IMG/VR virus record: IMGVR_UViG_3300046820_002568 | Span: 62,001-126,000 of that record | Source: a virus | Direction: 5' to 3' (one strand) | Length of the DNA: 64,000 nucleotides | Part shown: one piece after another, positions 12,138-64,000 of the stretch | Position numbering within the stretch: position 1 is the first letter of the stretch | Layout of the letters: each line of letters begins with the position of its first letter | Made by a program: the position numbers and the translations under genes | Notes under the pieces: model-generated | Told to the model about the DNA's origin: nothing | The model's database searches: none | The model's input: the letters and a program-made list of their open reading frames with translations, nothing else

Positions 12138-14678
12138 TTAAATATCATTATAATTTCTAACATCAAAAAACTTATAACCATAAGTTCTAAGTGAACCCGT
12201 ATTATTAACTTCACCAATTCTCCTGAAATTCTCCATTCCTGATATTTTTCCTCTTTCAATAAATACATTTGATTGGATTATTGGCTGCTCAATTACATTC
12301 ATTAGATATTCCATTTTAGTAATTGTTGTTGCCGTTAAGTTAACCTCTGAAAATCCATAAGATTGTACAACAAATACACTAGTACCTGCCGAAAAATCTA
12401 TGTAACTTTGGTCGTTAATTGTATAAGCGGTATATTCAGGACTTTGCGAAGTCACCACTCCTGTAGTACCATCAGGTAAATTAATTACTAAATCATTAAC
12501 ATATGGATTTATTCCATAAACTTTCAGTTCTTCAAGTCTAGACTGAGTAAATCCTGAAATAATGTATGGTACTTCTACAAAATTCCAGCTAGATTGAGCG
12601 TCAATAGTATTCAATGCGTCAAAATAATTTATAAAATTTTGAGATTTTGGACTTGTATTCCATGAGCCATTTTTAGTTAAAAATCTTACTTCCCCATAAG
12701 GATTTTCTATTTCTACTGTAAGATTTGTACCCAGTGCAGGAGTAGGGGTAGGCGTTGAGTTCACACCTATTGTTGGTGTTACGGTAATAGTAGGGGTTGT
12801 TACGATTGTGGGTGTAACTGTTGGGGTAACACCGATGTCAACAGTTGGCGTTGGGGGTAAAAACGGTGGCTCACATCCGGTAGAGCTTGCTAATGCATAT
12901 CTTGGTCCTCCGGGTTCAAATAATACTCTTGCTCTTAAAACTTGACCAGGTGAAAACATCCATGTACATCTTTGACTTGAATAGTCCATAAAATTCATAG
13001 TCATCTCAACAGGATTACCAGGACATGATGAGTAATGCGGATAAACGGGACACCCTGAATTTGGACCGTCATGGGTTGGGGTATCATCAACATCATCACT
13101 TTGGCAATTTCCGTTTCCAGTTCCCCAAATATGTTTTAAGTTCAACCAATGTCCTACCTCATGTGTTGCAGTTCTTCCAACTCCGACAGAATAATTTAGT
13201 CCAGGATTTTCCATACTTCCAATAGTCTCATAATCTAAAACAATTCCATCAGTAGCGGCAGGACCCCCTGGTCCTGGTGCAAATCCAGCATAATTATTAA
13301 TGTCACATACCCAAATATTTAAATATTTGTCCCTTGGCCATGCATTAACCCCTCCTAAGGACTCAAATTGTACTCCATTACCCATAGAGAATTGAGGTAC
13401 ATTTGTAAATTTTCTAGTTATACCATTAGTTGGTCTACCATCAGGGTCTTGAGTTGCCAAACAAAATTGAAGATTCATATTTCCAACTGGTTGGAATATA
13501 TCGGGTGTGTTTGCGATTTGTGGTCCTGATGCGGAAAAATCAATATTTAATTGGTCAATTTGAGCGTAAATTAAATCATCACTTATATTCTGAATATTTT
13601 GACTATAAACAATGTGAAAAACTACAGGAATTGTTATTGTTGTAAATGAAGCGGCTCTTCCTCTATTTTGAATAGCATTTCTAGTAAACTCTTCAATATT
13701 AATTACCTCTTCTTTTGTATTTTTATTTTGTATAAGTGAGTCTTGGTATTCTTGATATCCACATAATAATTCATCCCCTGTTGGGTCAGATTGTAAAGCC
13801 CTACTTATAGGTCCTATCTGTCTTTGTAAAAAACTATCAATTGTTTGCACCGCAGAATACGGTACATTCACTGTTTTTGTAATAACATAATCCCCTAAAG
13901 ATGTTGTACCATAAAAAGTTATGGTATAACTTTTAACATCGGTCAAAGTCGGATATGTATGAGATACCGATTCAGGAATAAAAACTGTAACTTCTTGGAT
14001 TGGTGTACCGTCGCCCCAGTCTATCCTATATGTCGATTCTTGTAAATAAGTTTTTTTGTTATCTGATGTGTTGTATATTGTAATCTCATTTGAGTTAGTG
14101 AATACAAAAGTAAAATTAACTTCGTCGTTTAATTGTGATATTTCTCCGTCCCATGCGGAATAATATCCTATATCTTCGTAGTTTTGCTCTAATAAAATTG
14201 GTATAGATAAATCAATTAATTGTGATGTATTTGGTTGAGTTATTAATAGTTCAACTATACTACCAACAGGGATAGTTATACCATCACCGACCAATTCCAA
14301 AAACAAATAAAAGAAAGTTGTTGCTTCCTGAGTTGGTTGTGTCGTTATGTAATTTACTCTATTTCCATCTTCCGCAATAAAAGTAACAGTTGACCCTGTT
14401 TTTAATTTACTAAAATAAAAAGACCAATCATACCCAGTTGACCCGCTTTTATTAATCCAAATTATTGGAGTTTGTCCTTCAATTGGTTCGAACCCAATAG
14501 AAATTAAATTACCCGCAGATTCCGGTTGAGCAATATTCCAAGTACCCAAGTTAACGGTACCTGAACTTAAAACATAAGATAACCCACTATAATAACCAAA
14601 AGTATTCCCACTATAAGTTTGAGTTGTAAGTTCATTCCTTAAAACCTCAGGTGATATTTTAATTTTAAAAGTTTCCAT
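12138..14678 (-). CDS. Tail protein with M43 (pappalysin-type) metallopeptidase domain
   Basis: An 846-residue protein. Residues about 210-265 look like a PKD-type beta domain (WGDGTP ... SHTYP). Residues about 345-595 form a full M43 peptidase. The start is TIPVVFHIVY, then YLNIWVCDINNYAG. The zinc-binding motif is HEVGHWLNLKH with H506, E507, H510 and H516, followed by a Met-turn region (NFMDYSSQRC). Several Cys occur where M43B enzymes have disulphides. A Pro/Thr linker (about 609-650) joins it to a C-terminal domain of about 200 residues. The family cleaves proteins outside cells and is common among secreted enzymes of Bacteroidota. Overlap of one base (TAATG) with the upstream gene puts it in the tail operon, so the peptidase may ride on the virion and cut host surface proteins. 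Confidence 0.85.
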   Translation of the reverse strand: METFKIKISPEVLRNELTTQTYSGNTFGYYSGLSYVLSSGTVNLGTWNIAQPESAGNLISIGFEPIEGQTPIIWINKSGSTGYDWSFYFSKLKTGSTVTFIAEDGNRVNYITTQPTQEATTFFYLFLELVGDGITIPVGSIVELLITQPNTSQLIDLSIPILLEQNYEDIGYYSAWDGEISQLNDEVNFTFVFTNSNEITIYNTSDNKKTYLQESTYRIDWGDGTPIQEVTVFIPESVSHTYPTLTDVKSYTITFYGTTSLGDYVITKTVNVPYSAVQTIDSFLQRQIGPISRALQSDPTGDELLCGYQEYQDSLIQNKNTKEEVINIEEFTRNAIQNRGRAASFTTITIPVVFHIVYSQNIQNISDDLIYAQIDQLNIDFSASGPQIANTPDIFQPVGNMNLQFCLATQDPDGRPTNGITRKFTNVPQFSMGNGVQFESLGGVNAWPRDKYLNIWVCDINNYAGFAPGPGGPAATDGIVLDYETIGSMENPGLNYSVGVGRTATHEVGHWLNLKHIWGTGNGNCQSDDVDDTPTHDGPNSGCPVYPHYSSCPGNPVEMTMNFMDYSSQRCTWMFSPGQVLRARVLFEPGGPRYALASSTGCEPPFLPPTPTVDIGVTPTVTPTIVTTPTITVTPTIGVNSTPTPTPALGTNLTVEIENPYGEVRFLTKNGSWNTSPKSQNFINYFDALNTIDAQSSWNFVEVPYIISGFTQSRLEELKVYGINPYVNDLVINLPDGTTGVVTSQSPEYTAYTINDQSYIDFSAGTSVFVVQSYGFSEVNLTATTITKMEYLMNVIEQPIIQSNVFIERGKISGMENFRRIGEVNNTGSLRTYGYKFFDVRNYNDI

Positions 14679-32518: not shown

Positions 32519-33520
32519 TTACTTTGTTTTTTTACTTTTTTCTTTTCTTGTTAACTTTAAAAATGGTGTGATAAAATAAGTCCATGCGTCGTCCGTTTTT
32601 GGTAGAAACTTAAAAATCCCATCATCCACCATAAACTTGATTAGATTTTTATAACTCCTACCGTCTGTATCTAAGTTCTCTGAGAAGATAAGTTTTACTT
32701 GTTCAATTGCCTCTTCATTCAAAAGAGGGTTAGACAAATCCACAATCTTTTCATTAATCTCATAATACTCTTTTTCAAATATACCTGATTTTGTCTTACC
32801 AGTCAAAATATTTTTTAAAGTTTGGTTATCTTTTTGTTCTTTCAACAATAGTTCAGCCTTTTCAAGAATTTCTTGGTAGGTGACTTTTCTTTCCAAAACT
32901 TCAGGAAAAAATTTAACGAGTGTCTTTTCTCCAAGGGATTGAATACCTTGGATATTATCTGATTTATCCCCCATCATTATCTTCAATGTTAAGACATTTT
33001 CGTGTGGAAATTCAAAATCATTGAACTTGATTTTGTCTCCATTTTCATATGTTGTTCTAAGTGAAGGTGAATAAAGTGAAACTTTTTCAGAAATAAGCTG
33101 AGTTAAATCTTTGTCAGAAGAGAATATTAATTTCTTTTCATTCTCAGATATTCTGCAATACTCAGCCATAAGGTCATCAGCTTCAATTCCTTGGACTTCA
33201 AGTTGTCGGACATACATTTCCTCCAAGTATTGTTTAACTCTGTTTTTTTGGTATAGATATGACAAATAAATTGGTTCTTCAAAAGATAGTTTTCTATTCT
33301 GTTTGTAACTTGGATATAGAATTTCTCTTTTTGACCTTGAGTCTTCTCCGTCCCAAAAAACAATTACCTTATCAAAATTGTGCTCGTCAATAAATTTTCT
33401 AAGAGTATTAATAAAGTGAAAGAGACCCCCAATATGGTTTCCATTGTGGAAATAATCTTTCACACCATGGAAACCAATTTTAAAGAGGTTATTACCGTCT
33501 ACAAGGAGAGTCTTCTTCAC
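32519..33520 (-). CDS. 5'-3' exonuclease, T4 RNase H / FEN family
   Basis: A 333-residue protein. The acidic metal-binding residues of the FEN/PIN superfamily are present: D8 in LLVDGNN, Asp in VFWDGEDSRSKR, IEADDL, SSDKDL, and the helix-hairpin-helix entry GDKSDNIQG. The basic YPSYKQNRK segment follows as in flap nucleases. T4 Rnh removes RNA primers and flaps from Okazaki fragments; the same job is likely here. A Lys-rich tail ends the protein. The gene lies 5 bases from an HNH endonuclease gene, which seems to have been inserted between it and uvsX. Confidence 0.9.
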   Translation of the reverse strand: MKKTLLVDGNNLFKIGFHGVKDYFHNGNHIGGLFHFINTLRKFIDEHNFDKVIVFWDGEDSRSKREILYPSYKQNRKLSFEEPIYLSYLYQKNRVKQYLEEMYVRQLEVQGIEADDLMAEYCRISENEKKLIFSSDKDLTQLISEKVSLYSPSLRTTYENGDKIKFNDFEFPHENVLTLKIMMGDKSDNIQGIQSLGEKTLVKFFPEVLERKVTYQEILEKAELLLKEQKDNQTLKNILTGKTKSGIFEKEYYEINEKIVDLSNPLLNEEAIEQVKLIFSENLDTDGRSYKNLIKFMVDDGIFKFLPKTDDAWTYFITPFLKLTRKEKSKKTK

Positions 33521-33525
33521 AGATT

Positions 33526-34101
33526 TTAGATTAAATCTTTTGACAAAATTTTGTTACTTTTTTTGATATTTTCTAACTTCCAAAGTGGTTGTAAATTAGT
33601 GTAGTAACATAATTTATACAACTCTTCTTCAGTTTTTGCGGATGATAAAGGTATTATGTGGTCTATATGCCAATCACTTCTGTTATCCCAAGTCATACCA
33701 TCAACGAATTGTTTTTCTAAATGTTCCCTTAATTGTAAGGGAGTACACCCCACAATGTCAAATGTTTTGTTTTTTTTGGTGATATCAAGTTTTTTTAAAT
33801 AAGACCATAATCTACTTCTCATTCCTGATAATAATTTAAATTCAGGTTCATCACTTTTTCTTTTTGTCCAATAACTATTATATTTTTCCCTATTATTTTC
33901 TATCCAAATTTTCTTTTTTCTTGATTGTTCTTCTTTGGTAGATTCATAATATTTTTTTGTTTGTTTTTTATACTCTTCCGGATTTTCTTCTCTCCATTTT
34001 TTCTTTTTTAAAAGATGACAAACTTTACAATTAGCGTGTTTTTTAAAAAATAAACTTTCGCATTTTTCTTCTCCACAATCTTTACAAACTTTGGTTTTCA
34101 T
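33526..34101 (-). CDS. HNH endonuclease, homing type (module 1)
   Basis: A 191-residue protein. The N-terminus has two CxxC pairs (CKDC, CKVC), probably a zinc ribbon. A Lys-rich helical linker follows, and the C-terminus holds the HNH site: DWHIDHIIPLSSAKTEEE followed by TNLQPLW, with the invariant H-x-D-H. It is homologous through the whole C-terminal half to the HNH protein at 62911-63615, which shares the GMTWDN ... WHIDHIIPLSSAKTEEE ... NLQPLW pattern. The start (ATG 34101) overlaps the end of the small RHH gene at 34082-34243 by 20 bases, so translation is probably coupled. Free-standing HNH genes of this kind in phages usually act as homing endonucleases. It lies between rnh-like and uvsX genes. 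Confidence 0.88.
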   Translation of the reverse strand: MKTKVCKDCGEEKCESLFFKKHANCKVCHLLKKKKWREENPEEYKKQTKKYYESTKEEQSRKKKIWIENNREKYNSYWTKRKSDEPEFKLLSGMRSRLWSYLKKLDITKKNKTFDIVGCTPLQLREHLEKQFVDGMTWDNRSDWHIDHIIPLSSAKTEEELYKLCYYTNLQPLWKLENIKKSNKILSKDLI

Positions 34102-34243
34102 TTTCTACATATTTCCTTAATAGTTTATTAACTAAAGACGAAAGATTAATTGATTTATATTTAAAATATTCAGGTAGGTCGGGGTCAATTGAAACCCCGA
34201 CTTTTACCTTCTTTAAATTTTCTACAATTTTCTTTCTTCCCAT
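34082..34243 (-). CDS. Small ribbon-helix-helix protein (module 1)
   Basis: A 53-residue frame from ATG 34243 to a TAA at 34084-34082. The protein begins MGRKK, then a short strand VKVGVSIDPDL and two helices ending in LSSLVNKLLRKYVEN. This is the strand-helix-helix layout of MetJ/Arc/CopG DNA-binding proteins. It aligns along its length with the protein at 62784-62939, which also starts MGR and ends EY.EN.N. Each precedes and overlaps a related HNH gene. The family binds short inverted repeats as dimers and often represses its own promoter. A near-palindrome at 34270-34285 is a candidate operator. It could regulate the nuclease or help it bind DNA. Confidence 0.75.
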   Translation of the reverse strand: MGRKKIVENLKKVKVGVSIDPDLPEYFKYKSINLSSLVNKLLRKYVENENQSL

Positions 34244-34248
34244 TATTA

Positions 34249-34285
34249 ATAAATATCTGAAAAAGTGGAAAAAATATAACTTTTA
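34249..34285 (-). promoter_or_regulatory. Candidate promoter/operator of RHH-HNH module 1
   Basis: The TATTTAT box (34249-34255) lies 5 bases before the RHH start. A 16-base near-palindrome on the forward strand (34270-34285, AAAAATATAACTTTTA) lies 14 bases further upstream. Module 2 at 62744-62779 has a TATTTAT box at nearly the same distance from its ATG and a 16-mer identical at 15 of 16 bases. Confidence 0.5.
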
Positions 34286-35269
34286 TTAGTCTTCGGAATC
34301 ATCTTGTGACTCATCCAAAGAATAGTTAGAATCTCCAAGCTTTTGAACCCAATAATCTGAGTAGTCTTTTTTATACTTTTCTAAAGCGTCTTTTGTGTCC
34401 GTAATATATCCATGCGGTACCGCAATAATCTTACCATCTTTATATCCAAGTCCATTTACGTGATTCTTTAAGATAGAAATTTTAGTCCTAATCGCAAAAG
34501 ATACTTTTCTACCATTTTTAGTGGCGTCAATATGGCTTATACCCGCCTTTTTTTGATTACCAAACAAAAATACTAAACTACTAGCCAACCAAATTGCCGT
34601 TCCACCCTTAGCTTGAATCTCGGGTTGTCCAAATGGATTATCAGGTAAAAGTACCCAAGGCTGATTTAAAACAACCAAAGTATTATAATATGGATAATCT
34701 TCTTTTTTTGATTTTGATATTCTTGAGTGTATCCCCATCCCTATTTTATCGGCAAGTACTTTTGCATTGTGCATGCCGCCGCCCTTACCATCAAATGTCA
34801 TTTGGCAAGGAATACTTCCAATACTATCCCACAAAAATAAAATATTATATGGGATGTCACCCTTTTCTTGAGCGTCCAAAATTTGATTAATGAAATCTGT
34901 GGCTTGTTCAATAACATCAAATGAATCATTAAAAATGAACATCCCGTCATACTCTCCGAACTCATTTTTTTCAGCTTGTAGTCCTAGTTCAATAGCATGT
35001 TCCCAACTCCATTTTTTTTCTGTAATAATAAAAACAGGTAGGTGACCTTTTTTCTGAGCGTCAGCGGCTGCTAAAATCATGGCCGTTGTTTTAGATGTAT
35101 TAGAATGTCCTAAAAACATATTAATACCACCTAAAACAGGTCCAGGTAACCCACATGCGTCCATAAAAGATTCTCCACAACTATAAAAAGTTTCTGGCTT
35201 ATATTTTGTTTTGGTGGAGTACTTATCTTTTATAGAATCTAATGAAAATTCTTTTTTCTTGATTGCCAT
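34286..35269 (-). CDS. uvsX: UvsX/RecA-like recombinase
   Basis: A 327-residue RecA-fold ATPase. Walker A is GHSNTSKT at 54-61 and Walker B is ILFLWDSIGS. A loop rich in Gly (FDGKGGGMHN) and the segment LVVLNQPW fit the DNA-binding and sensor regions. Its C-terminus is acidic (SQDDSED), like UvsX and RecA. UvsX forms filaments on single-stranded DNA and drives strand exchange and recombination-primed replication with SSB. The gene is shorter than T4 UvsX (about 390), mostly at the ends. It is in the same operon as SSB (upstream) and the exonuclease and helicase (downstream). Confidence 0.9.
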   Translation of the reverse strand: MAIKKKEFSLDSIKDKYSTKTKYKPETFYSCGESFMDACGLPGPVLGGINMFLGHSNTSKTTAMILAAADAQKKGHLPVFIITEKKWSWEHAIELGLQAEKNEFGEYDGMFIFNDSFDVIEQATDFINQILDAQEKGDIPYNILFLWDSIGSIPCQMTFDGKGGGMHNAKVLADKIGMGIHSRISKSKKEDYPYYNTLVVLNQPWVLLPDNPFGQPEIQAKGGTAIWLASSLVFLFGNQKKAGISHIDATKNGRKVSFAIRTKISILKNHVNGLGYKDGKIIAVPHGYITDTKDALEKYKKDYSDYWVQKLGDSNYSLDESQDDSED

Positions 35270-35367
35270 TATTTCTTTATTTTATTTAATAAATTAGTAG
35301 ACCAAAGTATTAATATATAGATACAGGATATAGTAAAATACTTTAATTTCTTTATCCAAATCTTCAT
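35269..35367 (-). CDS. Possible 32-residue hydrophobic peptide
   Basis: A short frame from ATG 35367 to a TAA that overlaps the uvsX start codon by one base (TAATG). It has a basic N-terminus (MKIWIKKLKYF) and a hydrophobic centre. The TAATG junction is typical of coupled phage genes, but at this length the frame could be chance, and coding potential cannot be judged. Confidence 0.25.
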   Translation of the reverse strand: MKIWIKKLKYFTISCIYILILWSTNLLNKIKK

Positions 35368-35397
35368 ATATTAAAATTAAATTATCTACAAATTAAA

Positions 35398-60975: not shown

Positions 60976-62745
60976 GTGCAAGAATCTGTTGACATTAGAA
61001 GTATTGAACAGAAAGCCCTACAAATCTTAGAAGAATACAAGGGCTCAAATAACTATATCCTAAAGTTAAAACAACAGCATGCAGTTAACCAAAAATTTAT
61101 CCCAACAAGAGCCCAATGTGATTATATAATTGGGTTCAATCAGGTGGAACCAAAAGTTGCAAAAAAGTGGGTTGATATTGATTCATATTTTGCAAAAAAA
61201 CTTGTGGATGATAATCCATTCATTAAGGAACCTGATAAAATTTATGTTGAAAAACTTCTTGTAGAAAAAGATAAGTCATATCACATTTGGGGAAAGATTT
61301 TTAGTGGGGATACAATTCACGACTTTTGGATTCCTAAAACGGCAATCCATAAAGCAAAAACAAGAACTGCTGAAGTTGATTGGGATAAGTATTCTCACAG
61401 ACCCGCTCTTAATCATCAAAAAGAATGTATCATTAAACTTCTTGAAAATGACAAATACATTGTTGCCGATGATATGGGTCTCGGAAAGACAACCTCAACT
61501 GTTATTTCATCTATTGAAAGTGGGGCCAAAAAGATTTTAATCATCTGTCCCGCAACACTCAAGATAAATTGGAAAAGGGAAATTGCTCTTTATACCGATG
61601 AATCAGTTTACATTGTTGAGAGTAAGAAATGGGAGGAGGGTCACAAATATTATATTATAAATTACGATATAATGAAAAACTTCCACGAACCAAAATCAAA
61701 AGAATCTATTTTAATGAAAGAGAATTTTGATTTGGTTGTAATTGATGAAGCTCACTATATTTCAAACCCTCAAGCTCAGAGAACAAAAATTATAAACGAT
61801 TTGGTTGGAAATTCTGAAAGACTTTGGCTTTTAACAGGAACTCCGATGACCTCAAGACCAATGAATTATTACAATCTTCTAAATTTAATTGAGAGTCCTG
61901 TTGCCGCAAATTGGATGGCATACGCCATTAGATATTGTGCGGGTTATCAGTTCTCAGTTGGAAAAAGAAAAGTTTGGAATGTTAATGGGGCATCAAATCT
62001 CGAAGAATTGAGAGACAGAACTTCCCGTCATGTGATTAGAAGATTAAAAACTGAGGTCTTGGATTTACCTGATAAAATTATTACACCACTTTACCAAAGA
62101 CTAAGTTCAAGATTATATGAAGAACTTATGGGTGAATACTATGACTGGTACACAAACAAAAAAGAAGAGTCAAAATCTTTGACCATTCAGTTCTCAAAAC
62201 TAACAAAAGTTAGACAGGTAATTGCTGAAGAAAAAATTGCGACCACAATTGAGGTTGCGGAAAACATTATTGAACAAGGAAAGAAAGTTATAATCTTTTC
62301 AAACTTTACAGAACCCCTTCAAAAAATTCATGAACATTTTAAAAAACAATCTGTTTATTTGGACGGGTCAACATCAAAACCAGCAAGACAAAAGGCTGTG
62401 GATGACTTCCAAGAAAATGATAAAGTAAAAGTTTTTTGTGGGAATATTAAAGCCGCTGGTGTTGGAATTACATTAACTGCCGCCGAAGCTGTCATTATGA
62501 ATGACCTTTCATTTTTACCTTCAGACCACGCTCAAGCGGAGGATAGGTCTTACAGATACGGACAAAAAAATAATGTTTTGGTCTACTACCCTATTTTCGA
62601 AAATACTTTGGAGATGGAAATTTATAATATTTTATCAAGAAAGAAACAAATCATAGGAACCGTTATGGGGGATACCCAAGATTCGGAGACAGATATAGTT
62701 GAGCAAATACTTAATGAAATTAATTCATACTCAAATAAAAGATAA
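60976..62745 (+). CDS. SNF2-family DNA helicase/translocase
   Basis: A 589-residue superfamily 2 ATPase starting with GTG at 60976. Walker A is DDMGLGKT near 166-172, the DEAH box is VIDEAHYIS (257-260), motif III is LTGTPM, and motif VI is AEDRSYRYGQKN, which together define the SNF2 group. The first ~140 residues are an accessory domain I cannot name. In phages such enzymes may do the work of T4 UvsW, branching and remodelling recombination intermediates. It is the first gene of the plus-strand unit and lies upstream of an RHH-HNH module, opposite in direction to the tail genes. Confidence 0.92.
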   Translation: MQESVDIRSIEQKALQILEEYKGSNNYILKLKQQHAVNQKFIPTRAQCDYIIGFNQVEPKVAKKWVDIDSYFAKKLVDDNPFIKEPDKIYVEKLLVEKDKSYHIWGKIFSGDTIHDFWIPKTAIHKAKTRTAEVDWDKYSHRPALNHQKECIIKLLENDKYIVADDMGLGKTTSTVISSIESGAKKILIICPATLKINWKREIALYTDESVYIVESKKWEEGHKYYIINYDIMKNFHEPKSKESILMKENFDLVVIDEAHYISNPQAQRTKIINDLVGNSERLWLLTGTPMTSRPMNYYNLLNLIESPVAANWMAYAIRYCAGYQFSVGKRKVWNVNGASNLEELRDRTSRHVIRRLKTEVLDLPDKIITPLYQRLSSRLYEELMGEYYDWYTNKKEESKSLTIQFSKLTKVRQVIAEEKIATTIEVAENIIEQGKKVIIFSNFTEPLQKIHEHFKKQSVYLDGSTSKPARQKAVDDFQENDKVKVFCGNIKAAGVGITLTAAEAVIMNDLSFLPSDHAQAEDRSYRYGQKNNVLVYYPIFENTLEMEIYNILSRKKQIIGTVMGDTQDSETDIVEQILNEINSYSNKR

Positions 62746-62779
62746 AAGTATAACTTTTACTATGTATTAAGATATTTAT
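62744..62779 (+). promoter_or_regulatory. Candidate promoter/operator of RHH-HNH module 2
   Basis: A near-palindrome AAAAGTATAACTTTTA (62744-62759) overlaps the helicase stop codon. A TATTTAT box (62773-62779) follows 13 bases later, and the RHH ATG comes 4 bases after that. The arrangement repeats that of module 1 (34249-34285). Confidence 0.5.
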
Positions 62780-62783
62780 TATT

Positions 62784-62939
62784 ATGGGAAGACCACCAAA
62801 AAAAGAAGAGGATAAAAAAATTAAAATAGGTATTAGTTTAGATAAAAAACTATATAACAAAATAATGAAAGATGGAGGAAAGGTTTCCCGAATAATTGAA
62901 GGAATTATCAATGAATATTGTGAAAACAAAAATTTGTAG
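62784..62939 (+). CDS. Small ribbon-helix-helix protein (module 2)
   Basis: A 51-residue frame from ATG 62784 to TAG 62937-62939. It begins MGRPPKK, then a strand KIKIGISLDKKL and two helices (VSRIIEGIINEY). It matches the module-1 protein in the MGR start, the K(V/I)G(V/I)S(I/L)D strand and the Y.EN.N end. Its last 29 bases overlap the start of the HNH gene, so the nuclease is probably translated only when this gene is. As an Arc/CopG-type protein it likely binds DNA as a dimer, possibly the palindrome just upstream. Whether it represses the module or guides the nuclease cannot be told. Confidence 0.78.
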   Translation: MGRPPKKEEDKKIKIGISLDKKLYNKIMKDGGKVSRIIEGIINEYCENKNL

Positions 62940-63615
62940 TAAGTGTAAATTAATAAAAAATATTAGTGAGTTTGTAAAACACCCTCAAACCAAGGATGGG
63001 TTACAGTGCCGTTGTAATGAATGTCGTAAAATAGAAAAAAAGGAATATTATAAAAAAAACAAAAAATCAATAAACGACAAATCAAAAAAATATAGGGAAG
63101 ATAACACACAAAAACTTATTGATTACTCTAGAAATTATTATAAGAAAAATAAAAAAAAATTACTTGAGGATAAAAAAGAATATTATAAAAAAAATTCTGA
63201 ATTAATTTATAAAAAGTTAGTAATTTATAATAAAAAAAATAAAAAAAAGGTAAATTTTTATAAAAATAATTATAATAAAGAAAAAAAGAAAAGTTCTAAT
63301 TTATTTAAATTAAGAATATTAATGAGAGATAGATTAAACAAATATTTTAAAAACTCATCATTATCTAAAAAAAATACGACCTTTAAAATAATTGGGTGTG
63401 AGCCGAAGCAACTAAAAGAACATCTTGAAAATCAATTCAAAGAAGGGATGACATGGGATAACCACGGACTTTATGGTTGGCATATTGACCACATAATTCC
63501 TTTATCTTCGGCTAAAACTGAAGAAGAAATTATTAAATTATGTCATTATAGTAATTTACAACCACTATGGGCTAAAGACAATTTAAGTAAGGGTTCTAAA
63601 ATCAGCAATAGATGA
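62911..63615 (+). CDS. HNH endonuclease, homing type (module 2)
   Basis: A 234-residue protein from ATG 62911; a TTG at 62896 in the same frame is a less likely start. The N-terminus has two CxxC pairs (CSKC, CNEC) forming a zinc ribbon, followed by a long Lys/Tyr-rich segment, which is coded by strikingly A-rich DNA. The C-terminal HNH domain reads GWHIDHIIPLSSAKTEEE and NLQPLWAKDN, with the invariant H-x-D-H. It is clearly homologous to the module-1 nuclease at 33526-34101. It lies between the SNF2 helicase and superoxide dismutase genes and was probably inserted there as a mobile module with its RHH partner. Confidence 0.88.
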   Translation: MNIVKTKICSKCKLIKNISEFVKHPQTKDGLQCRCNECRKIEKKEYYKKNKKSINDKSKKYREDNTQKLIDYSRNYYKKNKKKLLEDKKEYYKKNSELIYKKLVIYNKKNKKKVNFYKNNYNKEKKKSSNLFKLRILMRDRLNKYFKNSSLSKKNTTFKIIGCEPKQLKEHLENQFKEGMTWDNHGLYGWHIDHIIPLSSAKTEEEIIKLCHYSNLQPLWAKDNLSKGSKISNR

Positions 63616-63628: not shown

Positions 63629-64000
63629 ATGAATAGACTTGAATTAATTTCAGAAAGTTTAGTTAAACAAATTAATGGTGATGAACCAAATGAAGTAAAA
63701 TTCTTTATCAATGAGGCAAAGACCATTGGCATTGATAAACTTCCATATTCATATTCCGCAATTAGAAGATTCATTGACCCTGAGACAATGAAGATTCATT
63801 ATAGAAGACATTACAAAACTTATGTTAAAAAATTAAATTCGGCTCTCCGTAAAAAAGATTATGGAGATGTGGAACTTGAGGATATTGTAAAACAAATTTC
63901 AAAGTATAGTACGGATATTAGAAACAATGCTGGTGGGGCATTTAATCACGCTCTTTTTTGGAAAATGCTTTCACCAAAATCTCAAAATCCATCGGGGGCA
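63629..64000 (+). CDS. Iron/manganese superoxide dismutase, cut by the window end
   Basis: The frame is open from ATG 63629 to the right edge, giving 124 codons. After about 35 residues of N-terminal extension the Fe/Mn-SOD pattern begins: LPYSYSAIRRFIDPETMKIH, then YRRHYKTYVKKLN and NNAGGAFNHALFWKMLSP. The first two metal ligands (His in MKIHYRR and His in FNHALFW) and the active-site Tyr (KTYV) are present. The remaining two ligands (Asp and His) would lie beyond the window. The enzyme converts superoxide to peroxide and oxygen. A phage copy may protect the infected cell from oxidative damage; alternatively it may be a structural protein that reuses the fold. It follows the HNH gene by 13 bases. 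Confidence 0.85.
   Translation, partial: MNRLELISESLVKQINGDEPNEVKFFINEAKTIGIDKLPYSYSAIRRFIDPETMKIHYRRHYKTYVKKLNSALRKKDYGDVELEDIVKQISKYSTDIRNNAGGAFNHALFWKMLSPKSQNPSGA

Follow-up and report, generated by a model that had tools for sequence, protein, structure and literature searches.

The locus examined here raises the question as to why a small gene for a ribbon-helix-helix (RHH) protein overlaps the start of an HNH endonuclease gene, and whether the two move together as one unit. The usual picture of a homing endonuclease gene is of a one-gene parasite, and only for a few T4 enzymes is the self-limitation of nuclease toxicity, to our knowledge, understood in detail. The reading that we favor, with a probability of roughly 0.68, is that these are free-standing homing endonuclease genes accompanied by a separate, co-mobile RHH autorepressor, the small protein probably serving as a dedicated off-switch.

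Two RHH-HNH gene pairs in one phage genome

The window, by which we mean the whole 64,000-nucleotide stretch that was analyzed, corresponds to bases 62,001-126,000 of a 139,882 bp IMG/VR contig from an uncultured phage. Relatives were gathered in IMG/VR scans from which the best 80 loci per scan were taken, and all of the close relatives are metagenomic. The host probably belongs to the Bacteroidota: among annotated phages a matching UvsX was seen only in those that infect Flavobacterium, and the nearest ribonucleotide reductases are those of Cellulophaga and Tenacibaculum phages.

At locus 1 the open reading frame for RHH1 (34082-34243, minus strand; 53 aa, class 1) overlaps that of HNH1 (33526-34101, minus; 191 aa), a zinc-ribbon endonuclease of homing type, by 20 nt. 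At locus 2, RHH2 (62784-62939, plus; 51 aa), assigned to class 2 by alignment with other class-2 RHH proteins, overlaps the 234-aa zinc-ribbon endonuclease HNH2 (62911-63615, plus) by 29 nt if translation begins at the ATG at 62911; a start at the GTG at 62920, as is typical of the family, shortens the overlap to the 20 nt that most relatives show. The first-pass annotation had described a gene pair of this kind, with an RHH protein of about 52 residues and overlaps of 20 and 29 nt, at both places, and we find both pairs as described; the partners are also homologous across loci as it had proposed, with the HNH proteins about 51% and the RHH proteins 33% identical. A scan of all 139,882 bp of the contig gives only these two copies of the HNH1/HNH2-type nuclease.

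HNH1 matches PHROG 1035 ('endonuclease VII', E 5e-21), a label that PHROG gives to HNH2 as well, and the Pfam HNH match is sub-threshold for these nucleases. The architecture of HNH1 comprises a zinc ribbon (C6, C9, C25 and C28), a variable, charged central part and, at the C-terminus, an HxDH..N..N motif with catalytic residues H145-x-D147-H148..N169..N178; the four cysteines and the HxDH..N..N residues are kept at 95% or more across 106 relatives. The catalytic half of a structure model is predicted with low confidence and was set aside. A search of bacterial genomes with the HNH protein gave a single, distant match, and a PADLOC scan gave nothing convincing.

The assignment of the small protein to the ribbon-helix-helix family proves sound: RHH1 scores above the Pfam CcdA cut-off (with a weak BrnA score), and 54 of 62 family members match the PHROG 'Arc-like repressor'. 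The RHH residues are conserved across the 62 sequences, and the proteins are 50-54 residues long, ending soon after helix 2, with a basic, AT-hook-like N-terminal arm (MGRPKK..KK). An AlphaFold monomer (pLDDT 88) has predicted helices at residues 22-29 and 34-47, and the best PDB matches of this model are to the RHH protein CdbA, at a non-significant E above 1 for so short a chain.

Elsewhere in the window, a 403-aa TnpB/IS605 OrfB-like protein (1678-2889, minus) is encoded amid tail genes with a GATATTTAT motif before the gene, and an 846-aa protein of the structural region (12138-14678, minus) contains HEVGHWLNLKH, resembling a zinc metallopeptidase domain.

Pairing and selection

HNH1 and HNH2 themselves were used as IMG/VR queries, a choice with no bias toward RHH carriers. 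Enough upstream DNA was available for 53 distinct HNH1-clade proteins, and an RHH frame precedes 48 of them (47 scored automatically and one, L091, by eye); the pairing is far above chance. At the other five the RHH and its leader are cleanly deleted so that the end of uvsX is joined to the HNH start, and in three of these alleles the HNH looks intact. None of the 18 more distant HNH proteins in the HNH2 scan has the frame, and the pairing is thus a trait of one HNH clade, with secondary losses. The condition under which the first-pass annotation would have called the pairing a coincidence, a lack of the RHH frame in most HNH homologues, does not hold for the close ones, and the proposed pairing stands for the HNH1 clade but does not extend to HNH homing genes at large.

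The reverse search agrees. At nearly all of 79 class-1 RHH loci, gathered with a class-1 RHH profile, and 57 class-2 RHH loci there is an overlapping nuclease frame (11-29 nt), and the loci without one are cut contigs and remnants. Several RHH genes persist next to broken or deleted nucleases, which counts against a role in control, since pure self-control would not long maintain the RHH. In the annotated phage records no RHH match was found by tblastn; one of nine phage-record HNH relatives checked, LR756501 (L368, a 735-kb huge metagenomic phage), shows an RHH-like frame that overlaps the start of a zinc-ribbon HNH gene to the same extent, a weak similarity (E 0.011) that suggests a wider distribution of the pairing. 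In L025 a small RHH-like frame of a different kind stands before an HNH gene that has no zinc ribbon, and this may be a pairing that arose independently.

The RHH frame is under selection as a protein. Over codons 1-44 the median dN/dS is 0.45, or 0.18 in an equal-length set, compared with medians of 0.79 and 2.46 in the shifted frames, and the alternative raised in the first-pass annotation, that the frames show no purifying selection, does not hold. The HNH value is 0.38, so that purifying selection on the two partners is about equally strong, and RHH distances track HNH distances (Mantel r 0.50, 0 of 500 permutations). These data bear on the idea that the RHH frame is a leader whose main role is to couple translation to the nuclease start, its product being nearly functionless. 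The constancy of the overlaps fits such a leader, but neither the selection at the protein level, comparable to that on the nuclease, nor the conserved RHH residues in 62 sequences, nor the class-specific palindromes described below would be expected of it, and we regard it as very unlikely.

Locus 1: the uvsX-exonuclease site

Module 1 lies between a gene for a UvsX/RecA-like recombinase (34286-35269, minus) and its right-hand neighbor, a 5'-3' exonuclease of RNase H/FEN type (32519-33520, minus) that belongs to the resident background. In the best 80 exonuclease loci, most of those with upstream DNA have uvsX and then the exonuclease with no HNH gene, the two being directly adjacent in many; such empty alleles occur in L193 and its relatives and also in the cultured Flavobacterium phage immuto. 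Against the empty L193 the window reaches 90% identity upstream but only 72% in uvsX; the exonuclease is 97% identical and the DNA past it 95%. Compared with the module-bearing L034 and L037, which have a diverged background, the upstream DNA is 75-78% identical, uvsX 85-90%, the leader 95-100%, the RHH gene 90-94%, the HNH gene 74-88% and the exonuclease 67%. This mosaic is the pattern expected from homing with co-conversion of the neighboring uvsX, and as read from these alignments the crossing of module 1 between diverged phages together with uvsX is a co-conversion signature.

The gene upstream is uvsX at 69 of the 77 distinct loci of the class-1 search and a phosphoesterase (gp47/SbcD-like) at others; class-2 modules sit after a DNA polymerase or helicase gene. 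L218 was considered as a never-invaded site and rejected, as the last HNH codons remain and the rest was apparently deleted between AAAAGT repeats; L213 seems to carry a scar of the same type. A further feature of the region is a stretch of about 110 nt (35284-35395), between an 83-aa gene and uvsX, that is missing from the aligned relatives whether occupied or empty.

Locus 2: insertion at the end of a helicase gene

Module 2 occupies the last codons of a gene for an SNF2/UvsW-like helicase (60976-62745, plus), which is followed by an Fe/Mn superoxide dismutase (SOD) gene (63629-64000, plus) that extends beyond the window. The empty allele is represented by L226, in which the helicase ends ...KEISNR* and is followed by the SOD gene, with flanks 92% and 98% identical to those of the window. 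Relative to L226, about 878 bp (62721-63598, plus) has been inserted after GAAAT with a seamless junction and no target-site duplication. The insertion has re-made the helicase C-terminus, which now reads INSYSNKR* instead of ISNR*, and what used to be the end of the helicase now supplies the final codons of HNH2 (ISNR*). The segment is absent from L226 and 79 other helicase relatives, so that the site is empty in all of the best 80 loci of the helicase search; class-2 modules occupy the same helicase-SOD site in L312 and in L315, L318 and L319.

The adjacency of the SOD gene to the SNF2/UvsW-like helicase gene is retained in many related contigs. In L312 the helicase beside the class-2 module apparently also has an intein-like insertion, so that two types of homing element may be housed in and beside this one helicase gene.

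Neither module lies within an intron or intein: one sits between two genes and the other in the final codons of the helicase gene, so that splicing is unneeded. The earlier proposal that the unit moves as a pair gains from these comparisons, given the occupied and empty alleles at both sites and the uvsX-module tract common to diverged phages; at the level of sequence, joint movement of RHH and HNH is well supported.

Other nuclease folds behind the RHH gene

RHH genes also precede nucleases of other folds. A LAGLIDADG protein lies behind an RHH in all four close relatives of the L340 nuclease (L378-L381), and a NUMOD3/TnsA-like protein does so in 7 of 11 relatives of the L142 nuclease (L385-L391); the overlaps are 14-26 nt or near this, and more than one RHH type is involved. 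The RHH is therefore not tied to the HNH fold. A distinct arrangement is seen in L143 and L146, where a cytosine methylase gene with a LAGLIDADG-bearing intein lies directly behind the RHH and the HNH partner seems to be deleted; we considered a nuclease-to-methylase swap and rejected it, the HNH gene apparently having been deleted up to a neighboring methylase gene.

This exchange of partners informs a second alternative, in which the RHH is an antitoxin-like inhibitor that binds the nuclease as a toxin and keeps it inactive. CcdA and BrnA bind their toxins to inactivate them, RHH1 scores above the CcdA cut-off and weakly with BrnA, and a small gene placed first and overlapping a toxic gene is a toxin-antitoxin layout. 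But the RHH proteins end at 50-54 residues after the second helix and so have no C-terminal toxin-binding tail, and the cognate partner varies among three unrelated nuclease folds. Moreover, an addiction pair should resist both the clean loss of the module, as in L218, and the loss of the RHH beside an intact HNH. We judge an antitoxin-like role to be decidedly improbable.

If the RHH is instead an autorepressor, it and its palindrome could constitute a general co-mobile repressor cassette for HNH, LAGLIDADG and PD-(D/E)XK (TnsA-like) nucleases, defining a two-gene, repressor-controlled class of homing elements; we hold the odds of this broader proposal to be about even.

Palindromes and a promoter-like motif in the leaders

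Both leaders have the same order of palindrome, GATATTTAT motif and RHH start. In leader 1 the candidate RHH1 operator is a 24-bp palindrome, AAAAGT-N12-ACTTTT (34261-34284, minus), with the GATATTTAT motif (34249-34257, minus) directly before the RHH1 ATG; in leader 2 the candidate RHH2 operator is a 15-bp palindrome, AAAAGT-ATA-ACTTTT (62744-62758, plus), with GATATTTAT at 62771-62779 (plus). A general inverted-repeat score was weak for individual leaders (median p 0.33), and a fixed-spacing test took its place. By this test 24 of 66 class-1 leaders have AAAGT-N12-ACTTT and 19 of 47 class-2 leaders have AAAGT-N3-ACTTT; the half-sites show almost no other spacing, and shuffled leaders give counts near 0. 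Exact half-sites thus occur in about 40% of leaders, with about 60% lacking a match. The fixed spacing is in part inherited, because leaders within one class are related by descent, and class-2 palindromes are kept behind differing upstream genes, with varied centers. Divergence between leaders levels off at 0.32 (0.42 when shuffled), even where RHH synonymous sites reach 0.72, so that the leaders remain more similar than shuffled ones. The 24-bp palindrome has a single copy in the contig, that of leader 1; the 15-bp type has three, about chance level, one of them in leader 2.

The sequence ATATTTAT has 32 copies in the contig, 16 of them no more than 25 nt ahead of a gene start and often 4 nt before the ATG, and is likely to be a phage promoter or translation signal; judging from its recurrence at gene starts phage-wide, GATATTTAT is probably a promoter. 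We had considered TATTTATTA as a module-specific operator or target duplication, and rejected this since ATATTTAT precedes many genes of the phage.

The first-pass annotation had left open whether the unit is controlled or co-targeted. Under co-targeting the RHH would bind DNA in or close to the homing site, perhaps together with the nuclease, and so help the nuclease to find or cut its target. The RHH does move with the nuclease, its basic AT-hook-like arm would suit such a role, and a class-2-type palindrome (AAAGTGAAACTTT) lies in the exonuclease gene near module 1, although chance alone would produce about one match of this kind. Against this, close RHH proteins accompany different nuclease folds and different insertion sites, and the class palindrome is in the module's own leader and absent from the empty uvsX-exonuclease junction that we inspected. 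We consider co-targeting unlikely, there being no positive support for it, whereas the class-specific palindrome beside a promoter-like motif and the fold exchange behind the RHH both argue, indirectly, for control.

An autorepressor would act as follows. The HNH nuclease would cut the element-free allele of a co-infecting phage, and repair from the element-bearing genome would copy the palindrome, the promoter-like motif and both module genes; at locus 1, to judge from the tract seen there, it would take the adjoining uvsX along. The RHH protein, made first from the shared message, would bind the palindrome upstream of its own promoter-like motif and so damp expression of both itself and the translationally coupled nuclease. 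Repression through the palindrome would mean that nuclease self-control in the style of I-TevI has been replaced by a small separate repressor, which could be joined to HNH, LAGLIDADG or TnsA-like nucleases alike; a phage that already carries an RHH might also use it to shut down a newly arriving module of that class.

Comparison with known systems

The compact, widespread two-gene design with its visible palindrome makes self-control of a selfish gene directly testable; it also explains a class of frames of about 50 aa that are easily missed in annotation, and shows a recombinase gene, uvsX, replaced through a hitch-hiking homing element. In a literature search for RHH proteins with homing or HNH nucleases, or for small or co-transcribed partner genes, with subscription papers mostly outside its scope, no such unit was described.

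The closest parallels are the free-standing elements of T4-type phages, such as segA at uvsX, segE at uvsW and mobE at nrdA/nrdB, in which a stand-alone nuclease gene likewise adjoins a conserved gene for replication or recombination; empty alleles and co-transfer of neighboring genes are shared as well, and even the neighbors, uvsX and a UvsW-like helicase, are the same (PMC2988022). Those elements are described as single genes (PMC2988022), whereas the mobile unit here appears to add a DNA-binding-type gene with a palindrome. I-TevI represses its own late promoter, and by analogy expression of the module nucleases may be held down at a promoter just upstream; I-TevI itself binds an operator that resembles its homing site (PMC2988022), whereas in the modules this role would fall to a separate RHH protein, and the empty sites do not show the palindrome. 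With the Arc/MetJ/CopG repressors and CcdA-type antitoxins the RHH shares its size, a predicted strand-helix-helix pattern and a palindrome, here a candidate operator, upstream of its gene, but unlike these it is mobile with a homing nuclease and has no C-terminal toxin-binding tail. Finally, in the exchanges bounded by homing endonuclease genes in ICP1 and other phages the nuclease genes mark the borders of exchanged DNA, as the modules do; there the DNA-binding domains lie within the nuclease protein (PMC10448857), while here the RHH is a separate, overlapping gene.
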